26,583 nt of DNA, taken from the IMG/VR virus record IMGVR_UViG_3300033993_001126, positions 1 to 26,583 of that record; one strand, given 5' to 3'. Position 1 is the stretch's first letter, and every line of letters begins with the position of its first letter. This document shows, one piece after another, positions 1 through 26,583 of this stretch. This DNA comes from a virus. A program made the translations under genes and the position numbers. Below the pieces are notes generated by a model. It saw only the letters and a list, made by a program, of their open reading frames with translations. It searched no databases and was not told the DNA's origin.

Positions 1-1146
1 CATTCCAAACTCCGTTTCACTGGCTTGTAAGATATAATTGAACAATTTATTTGGATTTGGTTCATTTATATGGTTTGTAGTAATCCTTCTTTTATAGATT
101 GGTGTTTCTACATAACCATTTTCATTAAAAAACTTCCATCTATGAGCAATATAATCACTCATTTTCTTATAATAAGGAACCTCTAACAATTCAGATGGAA
201 TATTACCATACATACATTGAAATGTAAGATTCTTTGACGCTTTGATTTCATCTTCTGTTAGACTGTCCTTACCATAATACAATCTTCCAAGATACTCATA
301 AGCATTTGGAGGAAGGTTATAATTGATCAACTTTGCAACTATGTGGGGGTGGTAGGCACTATAATCAATCATGAACAACATACCATCATCACCATATCTA
401 CTGATAAATGATGATCTACACCCATTTTCTTTGTTTAGAGCACTATAGTTAACGTTACCAAACCTATTACTAGGTCTTCCTGTTGCGGTATATAGGTTAT
501 ATTGTGTATAAACATAACCATCCTTATCTTTGACCGTTTTGTTTTCAAAATGCCTATTAAACAATTCTACGTCAACTTTTAAACCATTGTGTTCAAGAAT
601 TCTAAGATTTTCAGTAATAGTTCCGTTAATACTATAAAAACTATCATCCAACTTTAACATTTGAACTCTTTTAAGCATTTCACCATACATCTTCTCAAAC
701 TTCTCTAAATGTTTCACAATTGGAATACATTTATTCAAATCACTATAACACATAAACTTGTGTTTATAAAATGAATGAGCAGTTGTATCAAAACCAGTAT
801 AATCATCAATCTTACCGTCAGTAATAAAAAACAAGATGTTAATATCATACAAATTCTGTACTGGCATCAGATGCATGAACTTCTTTTTATCATAAATCCA
901 CTTTTTTCCTTTGAGTTTATTAAAGTCTTCAATCAATGTGGTTTTATCCACACAAAATCTTGAGTCTGGATGATCTACAGAAATTATATAAGTTTGTTTA
1001 CTTTTGATTGTATAAATCATTAATAAACACGGTTCATCTGCACATGGATGAAAGCATTCATCATTTTGAATGCAATCCATGATTAAATCACTGTTCCAAT
1101 TATCTTGTAAAAAGTTTTTGTAACTCTCAGTGTCTTTGATGACCAT
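1..1146 (-). CDS. Family A DNA polymerase, N-terminal 382 residues (gene runs off the left edge)
   Basis: The reading frame is open from an ATG at 1146 to the window edge and is the replicative or repair polymerase candidate of this genome. Residues 220-229 (TATGRPSNRF) match the conserved TATGR segment of family A enzymes. Motif A is DYSAYHPH at 261-268, with catalytic Asp261. The O-helix signature K-x3-F-x3-YG lies at 305-314. QASETEF (about 374-380) fits the segment before the missing motif C. Residues 1-170 look like a degenerate 3'-5' exonuclease domain: the usual DxE of motif I is DCI (24-26). The Glu steric-gate position of motif A is His266, and the Arg four residues before Lys305 is Ile301. 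An in-frame TGA lies 12 codons upstream with no other ATG between, so 1146 is the best start. The polymerase family is firm; its role in replication is inferred. Confidence 0.88.
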   Translation of the reverse strand, partial: MVIKDTESYKNFLQDNWNSDLIMDCIQNDECFHPCADEPCLLMIYTIKSKQTYIISVDHPDSRFCVDKTTLIEDFNKLKGKKWIYDKKKFMHLMPVQNLYDINILFFITDGKIDDYTGFDTTAHSFYKHKFMCYSDLNKCIPIVKHLEKFEKMYGEMLKRVQMLKLDDSFYSINGTITENLRILEHNGLKVDVELFNRHFENKTVKDKDGYVYTQYNLYTATGRPSNRFGNVNYSALNKENGCRSSFISRYGDDGMLFMIDYSAYHPHIVAKLINYNLPPNAYEYLGRLYYGKDSLTEDEIKASKNLTFQCMYGNIPSELLEVPYYKKMSDYIAHRWKFFNENGYVETPIYKRRITTNHINEPNPNKLFNYILQASETEFGM

Positions 1147-1152
1147 ACCGCA

Positions 1153-1180
1153 AGTATATCCACAATGTATATGGTGTCAA
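1153..1180 (-). promoter_or_regulatory. Promoter upstream of the DNA polymerase gene
   Basis: On the minus strand TTGACA (1180-1175) and TATACT (1158-1153) are separated by 16 bases, close to the sigma-70 consensus. The same stretch also reads TTG-N19-TATACTTG, one mismatch from the Bacteroidota-type TAnnTTTG -7 box. It fills the gap between the polymerase gene and the tail block. The expected transcription start falls at or within a few bases of the ATG at 1146, which would give a nearly leaderless mRNA. This suggests separate transcription of the polymerase by host RNA polymerase. Confidence 0.6.
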
Positions 1181-1191
1181 TTTTATACTTT

Positions 1192-6722: not shown

Positions 6723-9251
6723 TTATGTTAAGCTTGTTTGCATTGCTACTCCGCCTGAATCCAATCTGAATCCTACATTCTTAGAAATTCCGGTGATCAT
6801 CTTTTGACCGTCTAAGTCAACGTTTATTGTTATATTACCAATACCTTCTTTAATACCTTGTTTTATAGCTCCTACTATAGATGCTTGATTAATAGCAAGT
6901 TCATTAGCAACAGCAGCATTGTTTGTATTAACTGGCATACCAGCTTCATTTGTTTTATTGATCATACTGCTAAATGAAGGTAAATTTGGTCCACCAAATA
7001 AACCGCTTATAATATTAAATCCAGTTCTAAATGGAGCCGTAATTGCATCTAACAAAGATGCACCAATTGAAACTATACCATTTAATATTCCCAATCCAAG
7101 TTTTGAAGGAGAATTACCAACAAAAATATTTTTTATCCAATTATATGCATCAACGAACGGTTGTATGATAGTATCATATAATGCACCTCCAATTGCTTGT
7201 AATCCACCAAGAAATCCCTTTGGCGTTTCTTCCCATCTCTTCATCAGTGAAGTTATAAATGTAAATATATTTAAAATTACACCAAATGGACCCATAAATT
7301 TACCAACTATGCCAAATGTTCTTAGTAAAAAAGTTCCAATTGATCCCATTTTTCCAAATATACTAGTAATTTTTCCAATGAAACCAATTGCATTTGTTGC
7401 TTGTGTTCCTTGAAAAAATGAAAATGCTGCTTTCATACTTTGAAAAAATGGTAAACCAAGATCTCTCACATATGAAAAATAACTGAGAGCCTTCCCAATT
7501 CTTTCAATTGTAGGAGCTATTGTATTCATCAAGTAAATATAAGGAGCAATATATTTAAATGTAGACAAAATTGCAGGTAGTATATAAGTAGCCGCACTTA
7601 ACAATGGTTCTACTATATCCATTACAGGTTTTGCTAATTCCATCATCAATTTATTAAATTGATTTTGTAACTGATTAATTCTTTCTTGATTAGCTCGTTG
7701 TCTTAATTTAAGTTCTGCTTGTTTACCGATATCTTTTGCTTCTACATCTCTCGCCCTCTTCATTTCTTGCATTTTATCCAATTGAGCCTTTTGTTCAACG
7801 GTACCATTCATTCTTATGTAATTAAGCTCTTTATCAGCTTGAATCATTTCTTGCAATTCAGTGACTGTTTTTCCTGATGCTTTTGCAAATGCTTCTGCTT
7901 GAAATGGGTCCATTGCATCAAAATTCATGCTCTTTGCAACCTTTAAAATTTCTCTATTAGCACCAAGTATATCTTTTCTATAAGCCAATTCTCTTGCTCT
8001 TTGAAATGTGATATTTGTACCCAACAAAACACTAGCTTCAATTTCATCCGTTATACTAGCATTAAAATCCAATAATTTTTTAGCAGTATCTGCCATTTTT
8101 TGGAATGTTGTTCCCATTTGTCTAGCTTCAACTGTGCCTTTAATTAGATTTACTACTGAACTTCCAGTATAAATTCTTATATCATCAGATGCATCTGCAA
8201 TTTCTTTCATTACTTCAGGCAAAGGAACTCCAGCTGCATTTGCCATTGATTTTGCAAAACCAATCATTCCTTTTTGAGATGCAGCGGTACCTCTGGATAT
8301 ACTAGAAATTGACTTTAAAAATTTTGCACTTTCTGCTTCACTGATTCCAAGTTGCGCAGATAAAACTGCTACATCTTTTACTAAATCTTTATTTACTGCA
8401 ACCAACGCATTAAATTCTTTACCAATTGCAGTGGTTGCAGCAACTACGCCATCAAATGTAACTCCCAAATCAGCCAAGTCAATTGCAAGTGACTTAACGT
8501 TTTTTTCTAAAACATCAAAGTCCTCCCTTAAAAATCCAAAACTTTTTCTGAGAGTAAATGCTGCTTTATCAAATTCAAAATACATTTTTACGCCTTTAAG
8601 AATAACATCTTTCCAAGTTGGAACTGTACCTGATAAAAGTTTGCCAAACTCACCCATACTGCTCACAGTATCACCAAAAACATTTTTTAACACATCAGCA
8701 AGAGTAACATTTTGTCGTAATGTTGGTGTAAATGATTGAATTGATGTTATCTGATCATTCAGAGCTTTTACAACTTTACTTTGATTATTAGCTGTTGTTG
8801 ACACATAACGAAGTTCTGCACCACGTAATACATTTTGTATTTTTAGTGCTTCTATTGCTTTTAAACGTTCCGCATTATCAATTCCTGCTTTTGCAAGATT
8901 TGATTGCAATGCTCTTATTTGAGCTGATGCAATTCTCATTTGAAGTTCAGTTTCTTCTCTTTTAAACTGAAGTCCTACTGAATCCAAATATGAAGACTTA
9001 GATTTGATTTCATTAATTCTATTTTGAACCGCTTCTTGTAACTTTTGTGAAGTTAAATATCTTTCAGAGTTATTATTATTTAATCCGGCTTGTTTTACTA
9101 TATCTTTAAAATTGTTACTAAGTACATCTGTTTCTTTATTGATACTTTTGAACACATCTCTAAGTGATTGACTAAAACTAGTTAAGTCTTTAACACTTTT
9201 TTCTAATTTATCAATATCACTTTGATTTACAGTTGATCCTGGTGTTGGCAT
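6723..9251 (-). CDS. Tail tape measure protein
   Basis: This 842-residue protein sets tail length in the inferred role. Residues 1-170 are strongly helical and coiled-coil-like. A middle part (about 230-500) is Ala/Lys-rich helical sequence typical of tape measures. A hydrophobic, Gly/Phe-rich stretch with several candidate membrane-active segments covers about 555-720. The end closes with a beta-type sequence (NITINVDLDGQKMITGIS), often seen at tape-measure C-termini. The gene starts 41 bases after the frameshifted part of the gp26-like chaperone gene and is followed by the LysM-wedge and hub-like genes, the conserved order. If the usual 1.5 angstrom per residue holds, the tail would be of the order of 120 nm. 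Confidence 0.85.
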   Translation of the reverse strand: MPTPGSTVNQSDIDKLEKSVKDLTSFSQSLRDVFKSINKETDVLSNNFKDIVKQAGLNNNNSERYLTSQKLQEAVQNRINEIKSKSSYLDSVGLQFKREETELQMRIASAQIRALQSNLAKAGIDNAERLKAIEALKIQNVLRGAELRYVSTTANNQSKVVKALNDQITSIQSFTPTLRQNVTLADVLKNVFGDTVSSMGEFGKLLSGTVPTWKDVILKGVKMYFEFDKAAFTLRKSFGFLREDFDVLEKNVKSLAIDLADLGVTFDGVVAATTAIGKEFNALVAVNKDLVKDVAVLSAQLGISEAESAKFLKSISSISRGTAASQKGMIGFAKSMANAAGVPLPEVMKEIADASDDIRIYTGSSVVNLIKGTVEARQMGTTFQKMADTAKKLLDFNASITDEIEASVLLGTNITFQRARELAYRKDILGANREILKVAKSMNFDAMDPFQAEAFAKASGKTVTELQEMIQADKELNYIRMNGTVEQKAQLDKMQEMKRARDVEAKDIGKQAELKLRQRANQERINQLQNQFNKLMMELAKPVMDIVEPLLSAATYILPAILSTFKYIAPYIYLMNTIAPTIERIGKALSYFSYVRDLGLPFFQSMKAAFSFFQGTQATNAIGFIGKITSIFGKMGSIGTFLLRTFGIVGKFMGPFGVILNIFTFITSLMKRWEETPKGFLGGLQAIGGALYDTIIQPFVDAYNWIKNIFVGNSPSKLGLGILNGIVSIGASLLDAITAPFRTGFNIISGLFGGPNLPSFSSMINKTNEAGMPVNTNNAAVANELAINQASIVGAIKQGIKEGIGNITINVDLDGQKMITGISKNVGFRLDSGGVAMQTSLT

Positions 9252-9291
9252 ATTTTATACAACAATAAATATATAAAATATGAACTTTAAA

Positions 9292-9519
9292 CTATCTTTT
9301 AATTGTTTTTGGAGATTCTTTTGAAGTGGATTTGTCCATTGCTTCTGATTCTTTCATCTTTGTATCAGCCAGTAACTTGTAATAAAAGTTCCTCAAAAAC
9401 ACTGGTAAGTTGTAACCAATGTTTTGATCAAATGCTCCTTGGGAATAATAACCTAATTCAAATATCTGTTTATGTACAAACAGTTTATATTCAGCTGTTA
9501 GGCCAAAAAAATTGTACCG
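9292..9519 (-). CDS. Frameshift-encoded C-terminal extension of the gp26-like tail assembly chaperone
   Basis: This frame stays open from 9519 to a TAG at 9294-9292 and has no ATG until far into it. It overlaps the last 29 bases of the gp26-like gene. From about 9491 down it encodes 66 residues: EYKLFVHKQIFELGYYSQGA, then FDQN, NLPVFLRNFYYKLLADTK and a charged tail. The combination of an aromatic helix, a NLPV-x-LRNFY segment and a Lys/Glu-rich helix is typical of the T part of phage tail chaperones that bind the tape measure. It could be made as a fusion after a +1 or -2 frameshift in the upstream gene (about 343 residues in all). The coding nature of this frame looks sound. Whether it is reached by programmed frameshifting, transcript slippage or a sequencing error in the T7 run is open. 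Confidence 0.72.
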   Translation of the reverse strand, partial: RYNFFGLTAEYKLFVHKQIFELGYYSQGAFDQNIGYNLPVFLRNFYYKLLADTKMKESEAMDKSTSKESPKTIKR

Positions 9520-10324
9520 TCATCGGCACCTCCGATCTATCCTCAGAGTTACAGTTAGGACAAGTAAAATTAAATGTCATGTCCAAATCAGGTGAATTTT
9601 GACGGATAAACTTTCTCAATTCAATACTATCTCTTGATAAGAGTTCAGTATCAACAAACTTTCTGATAAATGCTTTGTCAGTATTACCGTCAATTGATGT
9701 AATTACATGTTTCAATCTAGTAGTAATTTCTGCACTTTGACCACCTTTGTTTAACTTAGATATAGATTTCAACTCATTTTCAATTTGTTGTTCTTCTAAT
9801 GAAGTGGCCAATTTAACAGTAACTAACTTTTTTGAATATGGAAGTGTGAAACTGATACTATTTTCTGATTTTGTAAATTTACTAAAGTCAAATTCTTTGT
9901 CTTTCAATTCAGATAGATTGATATCAATCTTTGATTCTTCTCTACAATTCTTACAAACTACACCTACGGGACCATAACTATCACCATATGCCAATCTTCT
10001 TGCAGCAACATACAATGCATTTTTGTCACCAATCAATATATTTTCAATCTTAATTGACTTATCAACAATCAAAGATTCAAGTAGTTTATCTAAAACAACA
10101 CCTTTTTTAATAAGATTTTCACTGGTAAGAATATCTTCTTCTTTAGCAGTCATCATCTTCAACTCAACTTTGCCTGATGATAACGGATCATTTTCTTTAT
10201 AAAAGAACCCTTTACTTGGTAACTCAATTACCTCAGTAGGAAATGACACCTCTTGTTTTTGTGGGGGTGGGGGTGCTTGAAAAGATTGTGGTCTTGTAAT
10301 TGGTACTGTGAAATTTTCTTCCAT
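9491..10324 (-). CDS. gp26-like baseplate/tail assembly chaperone with two CxxC pairs
   Basis: This 277-residue protein matches the T4 gp26 (T4_baseplate) family. After a Pro-rich N-terminus, ELPSKGFFYKENDPLSSGKV (34-53) and MMTAKEEDILTSENLIKKG (57-75) are the family's hallmark segments. Cys124/Cys127 and Cys255/Cys258 form two CxxC pairs likely to bind a metal. The zero-frame product ends in FFWPNS. In T4, gp26 helps assemble the hub and is absent from the finished baseplate. Here the gene lies between the tube and the tape measure, the place of G/GT-type tail chaperones, and its 3' end overlaps a second open frame (9292-9519). Its product should therefore occur as a short form and possibly a longer frameshifted form. 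Confidence 0.85.
   Translation of the reverse strand: MEENFTVPITRPQSFQAPPPPQKQEVSFPTEVIELPSKGFFYKENDPLSSGKVELKMMTAKEEDILTSENLIKKGVVLDKLLESLIVDKSIKIENILIGDKNALYVAARRLAYGDSYGPVGVVCKNCREESKIDINLSELKDKEFDFSKFTKSENSISFTLPYSKKLVTVKLATSLEEQQIENELKSISKLNKGGQSAEITTRLKHVITSIDGNTDKAFIRKFVDTELLSRDSIELRKFIRQNSPDLDMTFNFTCPNCNSEDRSEVPMTVQFFWPNS
9505..9511 (-). other. Candidate ribosomal frameshift site (run of seven T)
   Basis: On the minus strand the zero frame reads CAA TTT TTT TGG CCT AAC AGC TGA. A tRNA-Phe on the second TTT can re-pair perfectly one base forward, or two bases back, and both lead into the open frame that continues to 9292. The shift must fall between the TGA of the new frame (9522-9520) and the zero-frame TGA (9493-9491). 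The AGC TGA A context at the stop codon is a second possible +1 site. A homopolymer error would look the same. Confidence 0.55.
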
Positions 10325-10382
10325 AAAATGTATAACTTGTACACATATATATAAAAGAATCTAAATATTTGATTTATTTTAT

Positions 10383-11327
10383 TTAAATTGATACCGCAGA
10401 CAATTCTTTTTGAGCAGCAGATAAGTATACTTTAGCTTGTTTTACTTCTTCCTCTGCAGTTTTAACTGAATCTTGAGCATCTTTTCTTTGTTTTGATAAA
10501 TCAGCCGCATCTGTTTGTTCTTTAACTTCAGATGGTTTTTCATTCTTTACATCTGTTGATGTTACTTGAGTTTTAGATAAATTGGATAATCTAACTTTTG
10601 CAGCTTTTAACTTTTCTTCTTTTGCTCTTAATTCAGCTCTTCTTTGATTAACAAAAGCTGCTTTTGTTTTTTTTGTAGTATCTTTAATTGCGTCTTCTTT
10701 TAAAAGAGAAATTATTCTTCTTAACTTAGATTCAATACTCTCATTTACTTTATTGTACTTAAACTTCTGAGTCAAGTCTTTAAATAAAGCAATATCATAC
10801 CATCCAAAGATGTATCTAAAGAACTGTTCTTTTTGTGCATCTGTATATTTGTCAGATCCTAACATTTGTCTTACAGCAGTTCCACTTAAAATTCTACCAT
10901 CAACCATGGTTTGATTTTCAGGTATAATTAGTACATATCCACTTTTACTGAGAGGGTCTAATTGGTTTGTGTCTCCTTTAAATGACTTGAAATAACCACC
11001 TTGATCTACCTTTAATCTTTCTGCATCTTTTTGACCCAATGCAAATATTACACTGGTTTTGTCTGGATCATACTTCTGTGTAATTTCTACTGATTTGTAG
11101 GGGCTCTTTGTTTGTATGATGTGATCAGGTGCAACACCATGTCTTACCCAGATTTGTTGTTTTTCACCAAATGTAAGTGGAGAGTCTGGTAGTTCTACTT
11201 TACCACTAGTAGAAACGTAGGTGTCATTGCCAGTTATTGACTTTAAAAAATTAAAGGCATTTAAATGACCTCTGTGTGGTGGATGAAATCTACCAGGATA
11301 TATTCCAATTACGCTTTTCAAGTTCAT
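10383..11327 (-). CDS. NMNAT/cytidylyltransferase-like nucleotidyltransferase with helical tail
   Basis: This 314-residue protein has the two signatures of the HxGH nucleotidyltransferase superfamily: GRFHPPHRGH at 12-21, with His18 and His21, and ISxTxxR-like LSGTAVR at 147-153. The catalytic domain spans about 1-185 and should transfer AMP or CMP to a phosphate-bearing acceptor such as nicotinamide mononucleotide. Residues 200-314 are Lys/Glu/Ala-rich and predicted helical or coiled coil, unlike ordinary NMNATs. The gene is in the late tail block between the tube gene and the tail chaperone, downstream of a terminator-like hairpin. That position hints at a late or virion-associated role, or a moron-type insertion. 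The superfamily is secure; the substrate is unknown. Confidence 0.8.
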   Translation of the reverse strand: MNLKSVIGIYPGRFHPPHRGHLNAFNFLKSITGNDTYVSTSGKVELPDSPLTFGEKQQIWVRHGVAPDHIIQTKSPYKSVEITQKYDPDKTSVIFALGQKDAERLKVDQGGYFKSFKGDTNQLDPLSKSGYVLIIPENQTMVDGRILSGTAVRQMLGSDKYTDAQKEQFFRYIFGWYDIALFKDLTQKFKYNKVNESIESKLRRIISLLKEDAIKDTTKKTKAAFVNQRRAELRAKEEKLKAAKVRLSNLSKTQVTSTDVKNEKPSEVKEQTDAADLSKQRKDAQDSVKTAEEEVKQAKVYLSAAQKELSAVSI

Positions 11328-11418: not shown

Positions 11419-11910
11419 TTAGTATTGTAGAATACAGTAATCTACAGATAGAGTCAAACTAATGGTTGCTGGATCACCACTATCAGTCCAATCCATTTCA
11501 CCAAAATCAGCACTGGTGATGAATGCACCCTTTAATGTCCATTCTTCTACTTTATCACCTACTGGACCTAGAACGTTGACGGTTAGATCCTTCTTATAGA
11601 AGTCACTATAACCATCACGGCCAGTTACAGATTCATGACTCAAACGTACCCATTCCATTACTGCTTGAGCACCAGATGGTACAATTGGATCATATAGTTC
11701 CATTGTAATGTTATCCCATGTGGTTTTGCCTTTGTAGTAACGTTGGATGTTGATGTGATCCAATGTCTTCTTTTCACTGGTTACTGTTGGTCTCTTGACT
11801 TTTCTAATCAAGAAACTTGGAATACCATCACAGTACAATAGAAACCTATTTTTGACTTTTGGTTCAAATTGTGTAAAGAATATTTCATTACTGTTTAGTA
11901 GATCTGCCAT
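11419..11910 (-). CDS. Tail tube protein, gp19-like
   Basis: This 163-residue protein builds the inner tube of the contractile tail. Its length equals that of T4 gp19 as I recall it. Recognisable segments are NRFLLYCDGIPSFLIRKVKR near the N-terminus, the TWDNITMELYDPI strand pair (about 63-75), a VMEWVR helix (about 84-89) and the closing strands TSADFGEMDWTDSGDPATIS and LTLSVDYC. These match the gp19/T4-like tube family. A weak SD-like AAGGA lies about 11 bases before the ATG, the best such site in the window, as fits a highly expressed protein. It heads the leftward tail block and is followed by a terminator hairpin. The sheath gene is not in this window. Confidence 0.88.
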   Translation of the reverse strand: MADLLNSNEIFFTQFEPKVKNRFLLYCDGIPSFLIRKVKRPTVTSEKKTLDHINIQRYYKGKTTWDNITMELYDPIVPSGAQAVMEWVRLSHESVTGRDGYSDFYKKDLTVNVLGPVGDKVEEWTLKGAFITSADFGEMDWTDSGDPATISLTLSVDYCILQY

Positions 11911-12026: not shown

Positions 12027-13535
12027 ATGGCTAGATCTAAAAATTCAAAAAACTGGTTATCTTTAAACTGTAAACATTGTAATAATTTGTTTGAATGTAG
12101 AGTGAGCAAACCAAAGATCTTTTGTAGCAAGAAATGTAGTAATAGTGATAATTCAACAAAACAAAAAATAATTGATGGTCAGAAAAAAACTTTTGATGAA
12201 AAATACGGTGGTCACCCAATGACTACAGATGTTGTAAAATCTAATTTTAAATCTGCAATTGTTAAAAAATATGGAGTTGATAGTTACAGTAAATTGCCTG
12301 AATATAAAGAGAAGGTAAAACAAACTCTTCTACTAAAATATGGATCTGAAAGTTATATAAATGTAGAAAAAATAAAATCTACTATGATGGATAGATATGG
12401 AGTGGACAATGCAGCCAAGATAAAATCTGTCTTAGATAAAAGATCAGTTACTAAGAAATCAAACCACTATGAATTTCTAGTAAATTACTGTAATAGTAAC
12501 AAATTACAATTTCTATGTGATGAGGTGGATTACAAAGGTTATCACTTTAGTAACATTTATAAATTCAAATGTGACGTATGTAATAAAACATTAGAATCTA
12601 CGGTTTATAACTTAAACAACTTGTTTTGTGATTATTGTCATCCGGAAAAAATCACTACTGTTGAAAATCATTTTTACAATTTTTTACAAGAAATTTTACC
12701 AAAAGATGCTGTTATTAAAAGAAATGATAGAACAGTATTAAATGGCAAAGAATTGGATTTTTATATTCCAGAATTAAAAATTGCGTTTGAAATTGATGGA
12801 TTATACTGGCACAGTGAAAACGGTGGTGGTATCAATAAAAACTATCATTTGAATAAAACAAAATCTTGCAGTTTTTATGGTATATCACTAATTCATATTT
12901 TCGAAAATGAGTGGATCAATAAAACAGAAATTGTAAAATCAATTGTCAAAACACTGTTGAAAACCAATACACTATTTAAAATTAATGCTAGAGATTGCAT
13001 TATTAAAGAAGTAAATGAAACTGAAAAAAATAAGTTTTTAAATGACAATCATTTACAAGGTGAAGATAAGTCTACAGTTAAATTAGGATTGTATAATAAA
13101 AATGATCTGGTTAGTATTATGACATTTAGAAAAACTTCCCGTTTTGATAAAACAAGTGATTGGGAATTAGTTAGATTTTGTAATGCAATTAATACTACAG
13201 TTAATGGTGGTGCAAGTAAATTATTAAAACATTTTATCAAACATTATAATCCAAAAAATATAGTAAGTTATAGTGACAGAAGATATTTTACCGGCAAAAT
13301 ATATGAAACTTTAGGATTCAATTTTGTAAGTCATACACCACCTAATTATCATTATCTTATAAATAATTATAAAGATATCAGACACCGCATGAGTTTTCAA
13401 AAACACAAATTAGAAAAAATATTAAAAATATACAACCATTCATTAAGTGAATGGGAAAATATGAAAAATAATGGTTATGATAGAATTTGGGATTGCGGCC
13501 ACGGCAAATATTTCCTTAAGATTCTTTCAAACTAG
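12027..13535 (+). CDS. Homing endonuclease, Vsr/PD-(D/E)XK-like, with zinc fingers and a GNAT-like tail
   Basis: This 502-residue protein is a free-standing mobile endonuclease candidate. Order of parts: a zinc-ribbon (Cys15, Cys18, Cys33, Cys37); short repeats built on KYG (71-73, 104-106, and RYGV at 123-126) of the type seen in DNA-binding NUMOD-like stretches; a second CxxC pair set (Cys182/185, Cys201/204); and a nuclease core with ELDFYIPELKIAFEIDG (242-258) and YWHSE (260-264), as in Vsr-like and EDxHD homing enzymes. The C-terminal part (about 340-455) has GGASKLL, SYSDRR and YETLGF, resembling a GNAT-type fold that is fused to such phage enzymes. It reads against its neighbours, and its end overlaps the nucleotidyltransferase gene by 20 bases. 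This looks like an inserted selfish gene. Confidence 0.8.
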   Translation: MARSKNSKNWLSLNCKHCNNLFECRVSKPKIFCSKKCSNSDNSTKQKIIDGQKKTFDEKYGGHPMTTDVVKSNFKSAIVKKYGVDSYSKLPEYKEKVKQTLLLKYGSESYINVEKIKSTMMDRYGVDNAAKIKSVLDKRSVTKKSNHYEFLVNYCNSNKLQFLCDEVDYKGYHFSNIYKFKCDVCNKTLESTVYNLNNLFCDYCHPEKITTVENHFYNFLQEILPKDAVIKRNDRTVLNGKELDFYIPELKIAFEIDGLYWHSENGGGINKNYHLNKTKSCSFYGISLIHIFENEWINKTEIVKSIVKTLLKTNTLFKINARDCIIKEVNETEKNKFLNDNHLQGEDKSTVKLGLYNKNDLVSIMTFRKTSRFDKTSDWELVRFCNAINTTVNGGASKLLKHFIKHYNPKNIVSYSDRRYFTGKIYETLGFNFVSHTPPNYHYLINNYKDIRHRMSFQKHKLEKILKIYNHSLSEWENMKNNGYDRIWDCGHGKYFLKILSN

Positions 13536-20972: not shown

Positions 20973-21545
20973 ATGAAAAATCTTTACCATATAGTTACCA
21001 GATTTACAAGAAACGATGTTAAATGGTTGGATAACTGTTATAAAAGTATTATAAATAATGATATAAACTATAAATGGTACATAATCGGAATCGATGATTA
21101 CGTTGACGTTTCTAAATATAGAAATACAATATATCTAAAATTTCCTGATAAACCTAATTGGAAAAATTTATGCAATTATTATTTAGATGTTGTTCCAGAC
21201 GAAGGTCAGTGGTTTTTCATATTAGATGATGATAACCTATTACATCCAAATTTTAATCAACTAGACAAAAAAATACAACCAAATTCAAAACTAATAATAG
21301 TAAGTCAATTATATGAACCAAATAAGATTAGAATCGCATGTGAACAAAATATAATTGTTCAAAAAATAGACATGGCTCAGTTTTGTATTAAACGAGAAAT
21401 AATAAACGATTTAAGATTTTGGGAAATATATAGAGGTGATGGGTATTTCATCATGGAACTATATATAAGATGTAAGGAATATGAAATCCAAACTCAGATT
21501 ATACCTGAAATATTTTCTTATTATAATGCACAACATTGGATATGA
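20973..21545 (+). CDS. Short GT-A glycosyltransferase (GT2-like)
   Basis: This 190-residue protein starts the rightward half of the island. It keeps the first half of a GT2 core: LYHIVTRFTRNDVKWLDNCY (4-23), WYIIGIDD (35-42) and WFFILDDDNLLHP (80-92), with the acidic triplet Asp85-Asp86-Asp87 as metal site. At 190 residues it is shorter than a usual GT2 and lacks a long acceptor domain, so it may act with a partner. Its stop overlaps the oxygenase start by four bases (ATGA), suggesting coupled translation. The fold is likely; activity is less sure. Confidence 0.68.
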   Translation: MKNLYHIVTRFTRNDVKWLDNCYKSIINNDINYKWYIIGIDDYVDVSKYRNTIYLKFPDKPNWKNLCNYYLDVVPDEGQWFFILDDDNLLHPNFNQLDKKIQPNSKLIIVSQLYEPNKIRIACEQNIIVQKIDMAQFCIKREIINDLRFWEIYRGDGYFIMELYIRCKEYEIQTQIIPEIFSYYNAQHWI

Positions 21546-22240
21546 TAAACACTGATAGTATAGATATATTAAAATGTAAAGAACAATTTGAAAATCATAA
21601 TAAAGTAATAATTAATGATTTTTTATTAACCGATTATGCTGAATCTTTACATCAATTTTACAATGAAAAAATGCCATCTGATTGGTGGTTTGCATCGTCG
21701 TATCCATCCTTTACTAAAGGGGAGTCTCATGAGTTTATACAAGTAACTGAAGACAATTATCACACAATACAAATAAATAAATCATATTCAAATAAGTGTT
21801 TGAATGATCATATATATTCATATTTCTTCTATAGAACTATGCCACACATTGATGGATGTTCGTGTTTACATTGTTCTATTCATAGTTTTTTGTCTAGTGA
21901 AAAGATTATAAATATTTTAAATGAAATTACAAATTTAAATTTAAAAAAATCAACGACTATATTTGCAAACAAATATACATCAGATTGTTTTCTAGCAACT
22001 CATACAGATGACGGAAACGGAAGACTTGCATTTGTTTTACATTTAACAAAAAATTGGAATGCATGTTGGGGAGGGATGTATATGGATCACACAGATCCAA
22101 ACAATATAAAAACCGTGATTCCAAGTTTTAATAAAATGGTAATGTTTAAAGTAGGAAATCATGAAACACCTCACAGTGTGAGTTGTGTAACAAATAATTT
22201 AACAAGAAAAAGAATATCAGTTACAGGATGGTTTGATTAA
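21542..22240 (+). CDS. 2OG-Fe(II) oxygenase, prolyl-4-hydroxylase-like
   Basis: This 232-residue enzyme should hydroxylate a substrate using iron, O2 and 2-oxoglutarate. The metal ligands are seen as HTDD (His154 and Asp156) and His211 in NHETPHSVS. The 2OG-binding Arg is Arg224 in KRISVTGWF. GNGRLAFVLHLTKNW and CWGGMY are the conserved strands between them. I start it at the ATG at 21542, which overlaps the preceding gene by four bases; a TTG two codons earlier is less likely. It lies among glycosyltransferases, next to a collagen-like fibre gene. That fits hydroxylation of a protein or sugar in the same pathway, but relatives also act on nucleic acids or small molecules. Residue numbers refer to the 232-residue form. 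Confidence 0.83.
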   Translation: MINTDSIDILKCKEQFENHNKVIINDFLLTDYAESLHQFYNEKMPSDWWFASSYPSFTKGESHEFIQVTEDNYHTIQINKSYSNKCLNDHIYSYFFYRTMPHIDGCSCLHCSIHSFLSSEKIINILNEITNLNLKKSTTIFANKYTSDCFLATHTDDGNGRLAFVLHLTKNWNACWGGMYMDHTDPNNIKTVIPSFNKMVMFKVGNHETPHSVSCVTNNLTRKRISVTGWFD

Positions 22241-25178: not shown

Positions 25179-26583
25179 TTATTTTTTAATACTTTAATCT
25201 CTTCCTTTAAAGTATCAACCTCAGTCTTTAATACTTCAATGTCTTCAATTGCTTTCTTCAACGCACTCCACATTGTTGGTACAAAGCTCCACGTATCAAG
25301 ACTTTGATAAATTGGATCACCATTTTTATCAACTGCATTTTTTTCTCCAAATACAGCTTGATTCAATCCACCATCTTGTACTTCATGTGCAATAAATCCA
25401 GATTCAACTTTTTGTAATGGATCATTAATACGAATAAATGTTTTTGGTTGAATGTTTTTAATAATTCCCCATCCATCATTATAGTTTTGTATATTGGTTT
25501 TTAATCTATAGTCAGATTGTGGCCCGGCTGGTCCGATTGGTCCTTGTCTTCCTTGAGGCCCTTGTGGTCCGATTGGTCCTTGTCTTCCTTGAGGCCCTTG
25601 TGGACCAGAAACATTGCTTGGAGCACCACTACTTCCGCTTGTTCCGCTTGATCCACTTGTTCCACTTGATCCGCTACCTCCACTTGATCCACTTGTTCCG
25701 CTTGATCCACTTGAACCACTTGTTCCACTTGATCCGCTACCTCCACTTGATCCACTTGTTCCGCTTGATCCACTTGAACCACTTGTTCCACTTGATCCGC
25801 TTGGTCCGATTGGTCCTTGTCTTCCTTGAGGCCCTTGTGGACCAGAAACATTGCTTGGAGCACCACTACTTCCGCTTGTTCCACTTGATCCACTTGTTCC
25901 GCTTGATCCACTTGATCCACTTGTTCCACTTGATCCGCTACCTCCACTTGATCCACTTGTTCCGCTTGATCCACTTGAACCACTTGTTCCACTTGATCCG
26001 CTACCTCCACTTGAACCGCTTGTTCCGCTTGAACCGCTTGGTCCGATTGGTCCTTGTCTTCCTTGAGGCCCTTGTGGACCAGAAACATTGCTTGGAGCAC
26101 CACTACTTCCGCTTGTTCCGCTTGATCCACTTGAACCGCTTGTTCCGCTTGATCCACTTGAACCGGATGTTCCGCTTGATCCACTTGAACCGGATGTTCC
26201 GCTTGATCCGCTTGAACCACTTGTTCCGCTTGAACCGCTTGAACCACTTGTTCCGCTTGAACCGCTTGGTCCGATTGGTCCTTGTCTTCCTTGAGGCCCT
26301 TGTGGTCCAGCTACGTTACTTGGAGCACCACTACTTCCACTTGTTCCGCTTGATCCACTTGAACCGGATGTTCCGCTTGATCCACTTGAACCGGATGTTC
26401 CACTTGATCCGCTTGAACCGCTTGTTCCGCTTGAACCGCTTGAACCACTTGTTCCGCTTGAACCGCTTGTTCCGCTTGAACCGCTTGGTCCGATTGGTCC
26501 TTGTCTTCCTTGAGGCCCTTGTGGACCAGAAACATTGCTTGGAGCACCACTACTTCCGCTTGTTCCGCTTGATCCACTTGAAC
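25175..26583 (-). CDS. Collagen-like tail fibre with C-terminal intramolecular chaperone (partial, 5' end off window)
   Basis: The frame is open from the right edge to a TAA at 25177-25175, with 468 full codons visible. The N-terminal part shown is Gly-X-Y repeat: GSSGTSG-type and GPQGPQGRQGPIGPSG-type triplets, broken by GAPSNV. The last 113 residues (25178-25516) form an S74-type chaperone. It starts at SDYRLKTNI (Ser and Lys of the autocleavage dyad) and has GFIAHEVQDGG and a final coiled coil (ALKKAIEDIEVLKTEVDTLK). In this family the domain drives trimer formation and then cuts itself off. A collagen-like trimeric fibre is therefore likely, with host binding elsewhere in the molecule. 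An ATG at 25366 is internal, not the true start. Its strand opposes the adjacent glycosyltransferase operon. Confidence 0.88.
   Translation of the reverse strand, partial: SSGSSGTSGSSGAPSNVSGPQGPQGRQGPIGPSGSSGTSGSSGTSGSSGSSGTSGSSGSSGTSGSSGSSGTSGSSGSSGTSGSSGAPSNVAGPQGPQGRQGPIGPSGSSGTSGSSGSSGTSGSSGSSGTSGSSGSSGTSGSSGSSGTSGSSGSSGTSGSSGAPSNVSGPQGPQGRQGPIGPSGSSGTSGSSGGSGSSGTSGSSGSSGTSGSSGGSGSSGTSGSSGSSGTSGSSGTSGSSGAPSNVSGPQGPQGRQGPIGPSGSSGTSGSSGSSGTSGSSGGSGSSGTSGSSGSSGTSGSSGGSGSSGTSGSSGTSGSSGAPSNVSGPQGPQGRQGPIGPQGPQGRQGPIGPAGPQSDYRLKTNIQNYNDGWGIIKNIQPKTFIRINDPLQKVESGFIAHEVQDGGLNQAVFGEKNAVDKNGDPIYQSLDTWSFVPTMWSALKKAIEDIEVLKTEVDTLKEEIKVLKNN
25517..26583 (-). repeat. Coding tandem repeat of collagen-like Gly-X-Y modules
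   Basis: Modules marked by GAPSNV(S/A)GPQGPQGRQGPIG occur with their GGAGC anchor at 25620, 25857, 26094, 26322 and 26541. The spacings are 237, 237, 228 and 219 bases, differing by multiples of 9 bases (three codons, one Gly-X-Y triplet). Between anchors lie GSSGTSG-type triplets, rich in Ser and Thr. The nearly identical DNA suggests recent unequal recombination or slippage; it will also be hard to assemble. Confidence 0.85.

Follow-up and report, generated by a model that had tools for sequence, protein, structure and literature searches.

The 26,583-nt viral sequence analysed here (the window) carries on its minus strand a gp26-like tail gene that ends in CAA TTT TTT TGG CCT AAC AGC TGA, with another reading frame running on past its stop codon. 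The locus raises the question of whether ribosomes change frame at the T7 run to join a gp26-type chaperone to a second domain and, if so, in which direction. We consider it highly probable, from comparison of the window with its relatives, that a programmed +1 ribosomal frameshift yields tail assembly chaperones of two lengths, the short TAC-N and the long TAC-NC, in the gpG/gpGT arrangement. At the sequence level the locus is a real, conserved recoding site of a known kind, the frameshifted tail assembly chaperone; as far as we have seen, the new elements are the +1 shift proposed for this clade and the coexistence of both directions within one family.

The junction and its neighbourhood

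The 0-frame product (9491-10324, minus strand) is a protein of 277 aa that matches PF12322, the T4 gp26/gp51 family, with 60.6 bits (cut-off 24.5) over profile positions 9-219 of 219, and phrog_150 ('baseplate hub') with an E of 9.8e-19. On these matches, along with 160 IMG/VR loci from two scans, we take it to be TAC-N. Its 3' end reads as the original prediction had given it, with the T7 run of CAA TTT TTT TGG CCT at 9511-9505, the stop TGA at 9493-9491 and FFWPNS* as the end of the protein. The +1 (equivalently -2) frame has a stop at 9522-9520, and from there it stays open to TAG at 9294-9292. Because this upstream +1-frame stop and the 0-frame stop bound the overlap, the frame change is confined to the 29 nt of 9519-9491. 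The second frame had been described as open to 9292 without a plausible ATG start, and we found no ATG, GTG or TTG in it through 45 nt beyond the 0-frame stop. The -1 frame closes at once at the junction; TAC-C lies in +1 instead, so the T4-like trait of a TAC-C in -1 is absent from the window.

The +1 frame would encode TAC-C, a helical domain of ~70 aa (9292-9519, minus strand; FGLTAEYK...YNLPVFLRNFYYKLL...) recognised from dN/dS, homology and AlphaFold2 modelling. Translation of 9292-10324 (minus strand) with one four-base step at TGGC gives a putative TAC-NC of 343 aa. In the mechanism that we propose, most ribosomes would end at the TGA and release TAC-N in the role of gp26 or gpG. A minority would slip +1 while peptidyl-tRNA-Phe is on TTT and TGG waits in the A site, and would read on as ..FFGLTAEYK.. 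to make TAC-NC, which with its TAC-C domain would take the role of gp51 or gpGT. By analogy with lambda, TAC-N would coat the tape measure protein from the next gene, and TAC-C would recruit tail tube subunits. A search of 9000-10500 against Rfam returned nothing up to an E of 1.

Tail tube and tape measure genes are found on either side of the gp26-like gene, as expected of a G/GT (TAC-N/TAC-NC) pair. Directly downstream is a gene for an 842-aa product (6723-9251, minus strand), which in a single BLASTP comparison matches the protein of Flavobacterium phage immuto that is annotated as tail tape measure (E 4e-11); the 842-aa product itself matches nothing in Pfam or PHROG. Two genes upstream is a gp19-like tail tube protein (11419-11910, minus strand; PF06841 29.7 bits against a cut-off of 28.2, phrog_4542 E 9.1e-28), and the gene between it and the gp26-like gene scores 20.7 for CTP_transf_like, just below the cut-off of 21.

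Conservation and identity of the out-of-frame domain

In the first IMG/VR scan 80 loci were kept of 94 found, and all 80, like the window, have the same TAC-C domain in the +1 frame past the gp26 stop when read by eye, with the consensus FGLTxEYK..H.QIF.L.Y.S.G.F.....Y.LPVYLR.FY...L...K.KE. A TAC-C HMM was built from 55 distinct sequences of this set, with immuto, Mel-JY01 and LR756508 included in the pool. Applied to the best 80 of at least 599 loci from a second, profile-based scan, it matched the +1 frame at E<1e-3 in 80/80 and the -1 frame at that level in 0/80; four of these loci (L135, L153, L179 and L195) have short frames, at or near a contig end. The two scans share at least two contigs (L028 = L119, L052 = L126). 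The out-of-frame overlap that had been expected of relatives in the event of a programmed shift is therefore present in both sets.

Loci on genome contigs numbered 14, of which 13 were read; L220, whose match ends at the contig end, was left out. TAC-C lies in the +1 frame, by eye, in 12 of the 13, L218 and L219 sharing one contig. The lone exception, L221 (Aquificaceae), has a longer overlap and, on inspection, a possible +1-frame TAC-C. L221:1941-7170 is an island in an Aquificaceae MAG with sheath-like, tube-like and gp26-like genes and a long tape-measure-like ORF (neighbours named by eye), and may represent a tail-like particle or prophage with the same frameshift device.

In 26 independent close pairs, dN/dS was 0.119 for the +1 reading and 1.51 and 2.10 for the other two. 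Earlier medians over 909 pairs with pS of 0.05-0.6 were 0.68 for the +1 reading and 0.91 and 1.74 for the others, and we put the value of 0.68 over all pairs down to saturation. Judged by these ratios, the TAC-C frame evolves as protein, under purifying selection in the relatives.

A profile of 125 +1-frame TAC-C sequences aligned with the TAC-C of T4-like phages and the T4 gp51 C-terminus with an hhalign probability of 96.4 and an E of 1e-9. The target rows were P-SSM2, S-PM2, HTVC008M, Cr30, phiM12, KVP40, phiW-14 and the T4 gp51 C-terminus (the Vi01 row was empty), and the kinship with GT-type chaperone domains envisaged in the original prediction was recovered for T4-like TAC-C. This profile alignment makes TAC-C a homologue of the T4 gp51 C-terminal domain and of cyanophage gp51. 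Both T4 gp26 and T4 gp51 carry PF12322; on phrog_150 (282 positions) gp51 matches 13-280 and gp26 14-235, and T4 gp51 therefore consists of a gp26-like domain plus TAC-C. Cyanophage gp51, described in a passage of Sullivan et al. 2010 (PMC3037559) as being without the first ~200 residues, is TAC-C alone. Pfam and PHROG scans of TAC-C gave nothing convincing. DUF6760 was considered for TAC-C and rejected, with 1/19 members matching, at an E of only 0.006, and nine other TAC-C sequences without a match.

Structural models were calculated with AlphaFold2 for TAC-N (14 window and IMG/VR sequences, pLDDT 84.5) and TAC-C (19 sequences, pLDDT 82.5), the latter predicted as helix-helix-helix. The Foldseek rank 1 in the PDB for the TAC-N model was the HK97 tail assembly chaperone, which was not significant (E 1.2). 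VIA-align of the model against 438 chains placed YqbN at the top (Z 5.7, rmsd 3.5, 82 aligned), which we take to be a tail chaperone like XkdN of PBSX, with the HK97 chaperone (Z 5.0, rmsd 3.8, 96 aligned) and a PICI-like ORF19 (Z 4.6, rmsd 5.8, 93 aligned) following and the next match at 3.1; all of these lie below a Z of 8, where the tool warns of a possible common arrangement. The modelled fold of TAC-N is suggestive of a resemblance to tail assembly chaperones. A fold search with TAC-C gave no useful match, and a PDB sequence search with both alignments gave nothing credible. As a separate observation, TAC-N has two CxxC pairs (residues 124/127 and 255/258) on either side of the tail-chaperone-like part, as though a zinc ribbon had been split to take in the chaperone fold, and weak VIA matches to Tim15 and ZPR1 span the region.

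The slip site and the direction of the proposed shift

For 138 distinct genes we took the two codons before W/Y/F-P plus the next codon as the slip-site triplet. TTT TTT TGG accounts for 110, TTT TTT TAC and TTT CTT TGG for 11 each, TTC TTT TGG for 4, and TTT CTA TGG and TTT CTA TTC for one each. The second, P-site codon is TTT in 125, CTT in 11 and CTA in 2, so that TTT or CTT followed by T is found in 136/138. Phe in the P site is TTT in 125/125 and never TTC, against 76% TTT and 24% TTC for other Phe codons of the same genes (binomial 2e-15, kinship ignored). Likewise Leu is CTT in 11/13, against 22.5% of the Leu codons in these genes (binomial 4e-6, kinship ignored). By these codon counts the slip codon is under synonymous constraint. 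TTT_T and CTT_T would both allow re-pairing one base forward, and the two CTA sites have TTT_C ahead, itself able to slip +1 to TTC. No conserved Shine-Dalgarno-like stimulator was found, SD-like 4-mers within 24 nt upstream occurring in only 46/128 sites, nor a conserved downstream RNA structure (mean folding z -0.72 against mononucleotide shuffles, 18% below -2).

A -2 shift, the other direction allowed by the original prediction, has the same frame relation and is known in Mu. The P-site Phe-tRNA would move two bases backward along the T run, the junction would read QFFFG and not QFFG, and full re-pairing would be possible at 121/138 sites. It would also account for the first Phe codon, which is TTT in 134/138, above expectation (binomial 1e-11, relatedness ignored); a simple P-site +1 slip needs no such bias, and slipping of two tRNAs, an effect of the E site or some contribution from -2 may lie behind it. 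At the four TTC TTT TGG sites, however, a -2 slip would re-pair on TCT, and it is indifferent to CTT versus CTA, yet CTT is preferred at the Leu sites, where the change from CTT to TTT matters for +1. The site of phage GXN1, TTC TTT CGT, does not suit -2 either. Because both the TTC TTT TGG sites and the CTT preference suit +1, we favour +1, and regard a programmed -2 shift as improbable.

TAC-C could instead never be fused, and be a separate small protein from ribosomes that reinitiate past the TGA. Such a state is suggested by LR756511, where an ATG located at the 0-frame stop opens the TAC-C-like ORF, and by the Mel-JY01 annotation, which has a separate overlapping hypothetical protein. Against it, ATG, GTG and TTG are all absent from the +1 frame through 45 nt past the 0-frame stop in 33/87 genes, the window and 32 others; the other 54/87 contain some such codon, at scattered positions, so this argument makes separate initiation unlikely only in genes without a start codon, such as the window. 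Synonymous constraint on the slip codon and the fused form of T4 gp51 also argue against reinitiation, and we hold it to be very improbable. Transcriptional slippage on the T7 run, giving mixed mRNAs with some in the fused frame, would be in keeping with the presence of T7 in most relatives, but the run is broken in the sites with TTC TTT TGG, TTT CTT TGG, TTT CTA TGG or TTT CTA TTC while the domain stays out of frame, and we give this reading only a very slight chance. Homopolymers are error-prone, and an error in the T7 run had been offered as the alternative to a shift, with one fused frame as the true gene; since a fused frame occurs in 0/160 IMG/VR loci of both scans and the same arrangement is seen in sequenced isolates, e.g. 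immuto, Mel-JY01, SP-15 and LIS04, sequencing error is refuted for the family and has a negligible probability here. The comparative evidence thus supports the earlier proposal of a gene just ahead of the tape measure gene in which a frameshift adds a T-like domain to a gp26-type chaperone, with +1 as the better-fitting direction.

We have met no earlier description, as far as we have seen, of the slip motif of this clade, the sense-codon (TTT)(TTT or CTT)_T. The +1 frameshift of prfB (release factor 2) would be alike in that, as we take its slip site to be, a CTT_T or TTT_T codon slips to TTT. The window's clade differs from prfB in having a sense TGG or TAC in the A site and not a stop, and in the lack of a conserved Shine-Dalgarno-like stimulator. 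The forward sites of the RECODE set with CUU before a stop are presumably also those of prfB. In passages of PMC10885494, CUU before a stop is the commonest forward shift site in the remaining RECODE set (295/448), and 0/481 forward cases were predicted, which its authors blame on records without whole genomes. Forward sites are hard for frameshift finders, and the present family supplies many naturally occurring, alignable sequences for a +1 site without a stop codon in the A site.

Frame of TAC-C across the family and related systems

We surveyed the direction in 26 named or uncultured phage records. TAC-C lies in the -1 frame in 10 (P-SSM2, S-PM2, HTVC008M, Melnitz, Cr30, phiM12, KVP40, phiW-14, Vi01 and XacN1) and in the +1 frame in 13 (immuto, Mel-JY01, LR756508, GXN1, LIS04, SP-15, RM378, PAU, pT24, PTm1, MA9V-1, LR756502 and Lak-A1, the last read with TAG as Gln). 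The frame labels of PAU, pT24, PTm1, MA9V-1, LR756502, Lak-A1, LIS04, GXN1, SP-15, RM378 and XacN1 were assigned by eye, most of these being without the T7 motif at the slip site. The FF slip motif is missing in 6 of the 13 +1 records (PAU, pT24, PTm1, MA9V-1, LR756502 and Lak-A1), and among the 10 -1 records all but Vi01 have FF at the junction. In the remaining three records there are two genes (T4 and CP220) or a separate ORF (LR756511). T4 genes 26 and 51 are separate and on opposite strands, and CP220 has two PF12322 places, one of which runs in frame into a gp51-like end. The arrangement in LR756511 (our L086), a huge phage, appears uncoupled, with the ATG of its TAC-C-like domain overlapping the 0-frame stop region. 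The +1 lineages comprise phages of Flavobacterium, Tenacibaculum, Chryseobacterium, Microcystis, Rhodothermus, Bacillus, Listeria and Streptococcus, Lak and other huge phages, and the window's environmental clade.

A tree of the short domain was calculated from 54 rows, the frameshift types being trimmed of their last 10 residues; on it, 4 changes suffice for the four states (minimum 3, shuffled mean 14.2). The +1 rows do not form one clade, as GXN1, LIS04 and SP-15 group weakly with -1 and two-gene rows. Deep forks are weak, the long branches of CP220, T4 gp51, RM378, XacN1, PTm1 and PAU are unsafe, and the tree, having no firm root, does not order the directions in time. We think it rather probable that the jump direction changed in evolution within this one tail chaperone family, at the same FF junction where FF was kept: classical T4-like phages would jump -1 and several lineages +1, while in T4 the jump was abolished by the split into 26 and 51. 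Since +1, -1, separate-ORF and two-gene states occur side by side, the T4 genes 26 and 51, whose products are known as baseplate hub proteins, may be viewed as the two halves of a frameshift gene that has split. The out-of-frame position of TAC-C also means that it is missing from the LIS04 annotation, is a separate hypothetical protein in Mel-JY01 and is a short hypothetical fragment in immuto and SP-15.

The likeness to lambda gpG/gpGT is drawn from the arrangement: in both, the gene that precedes the tape measure gene would specify a short protein and a frameshift-extended one, with a small domain as the extension. They differ in that lambda shifts -1, according to passages of PMC5009743, and that the window's TAC-N has 277 aa and CxxC pairs. 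T4 gp51, with both TAC-N and TAC-C, matches the putative TAC-NC, although T4 uses two genes on opposite strands and the window one gene with a shift. The gp26-gp51 overlap of cyanophages, pelagiphage HTVC008M, Cr30, phiM12 and others has the same two homologous parts, with TAC-C in -1 and not in +1. Two further cases are likened to the window by description. First, Bacillus thuringiensis phage 0305phi8-36 has, close to its tape measure gene, orfs 143/144 for a short and a long protein of tail chaperonin-like type, which are two genes with no frameshift in passages of PMC2147016. Second, the tail chaperone of Halorubrum virus HSTV-2, an archaeal virus, very likely shifts +1 at the G-T junction, as stated in a passage of PMC5009743.

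The tie between the T4 gp26 family and the G/GT system anticipated in the original prediction is supported by our data. The abstract of Vladimirov, Gautam and Davidson 2022 reportedly names genes 26 and 51, and the link is probably already in print there. That study is cited for T4-like TAC genes in passages of PMC10885494 and PMC12846349, which credit some T4-like phages with one short and one long TAC gene and describe poly-T -1 signals in their TAC-N genes. A statement in the review of Atkins et al. 2016 (PMC5009743) has G-T frameshifting as widely conserved 'except T4'. Excerpts of a 2010 review (PMC3004832) table gp26 and gp51 as hub assembly chaperones and describe gp51 as required for assembly and absent from the final particle. 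Genetic work cited in the same excerpts places gp26 in the hub itself, and T4 gp26 may therefore not be a chaperone only. Our literature searches, with subscription papers mostly outside their scope, returned no title on a +1 case in the gp26/gp51 family.

Elsewhere in the window no tRNA genes were found, and three further regions drew our attention. At 25500-26583 (minus strand) there are collagen-like Gly-X-Y repeats (SSGTSGSSG..GPQGPQGRQGPIGP), and the C-terminal end looks by eye like a Peptidase_S74-type tail-fibre chaperone end. This gene adjoins several glycosyltransferases and a 2OG-Fe(II) oxygenase (21536-22240), and its product is perhaps a hydroxylated or glycosylated collagen-like fibre. 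A 502-aa DUF7487-containing protein is encoded at 12027-13535 on the plus strand, opposite to the surrounding tail genes, and we would guess that it is possibly a mobile homing-type gene. Lastly, an open frame at 1-1190 (minus strand), beside the baseplate genes and leaving the window edge, shows by eye motifs like those of a family A DNA polymerase palm.
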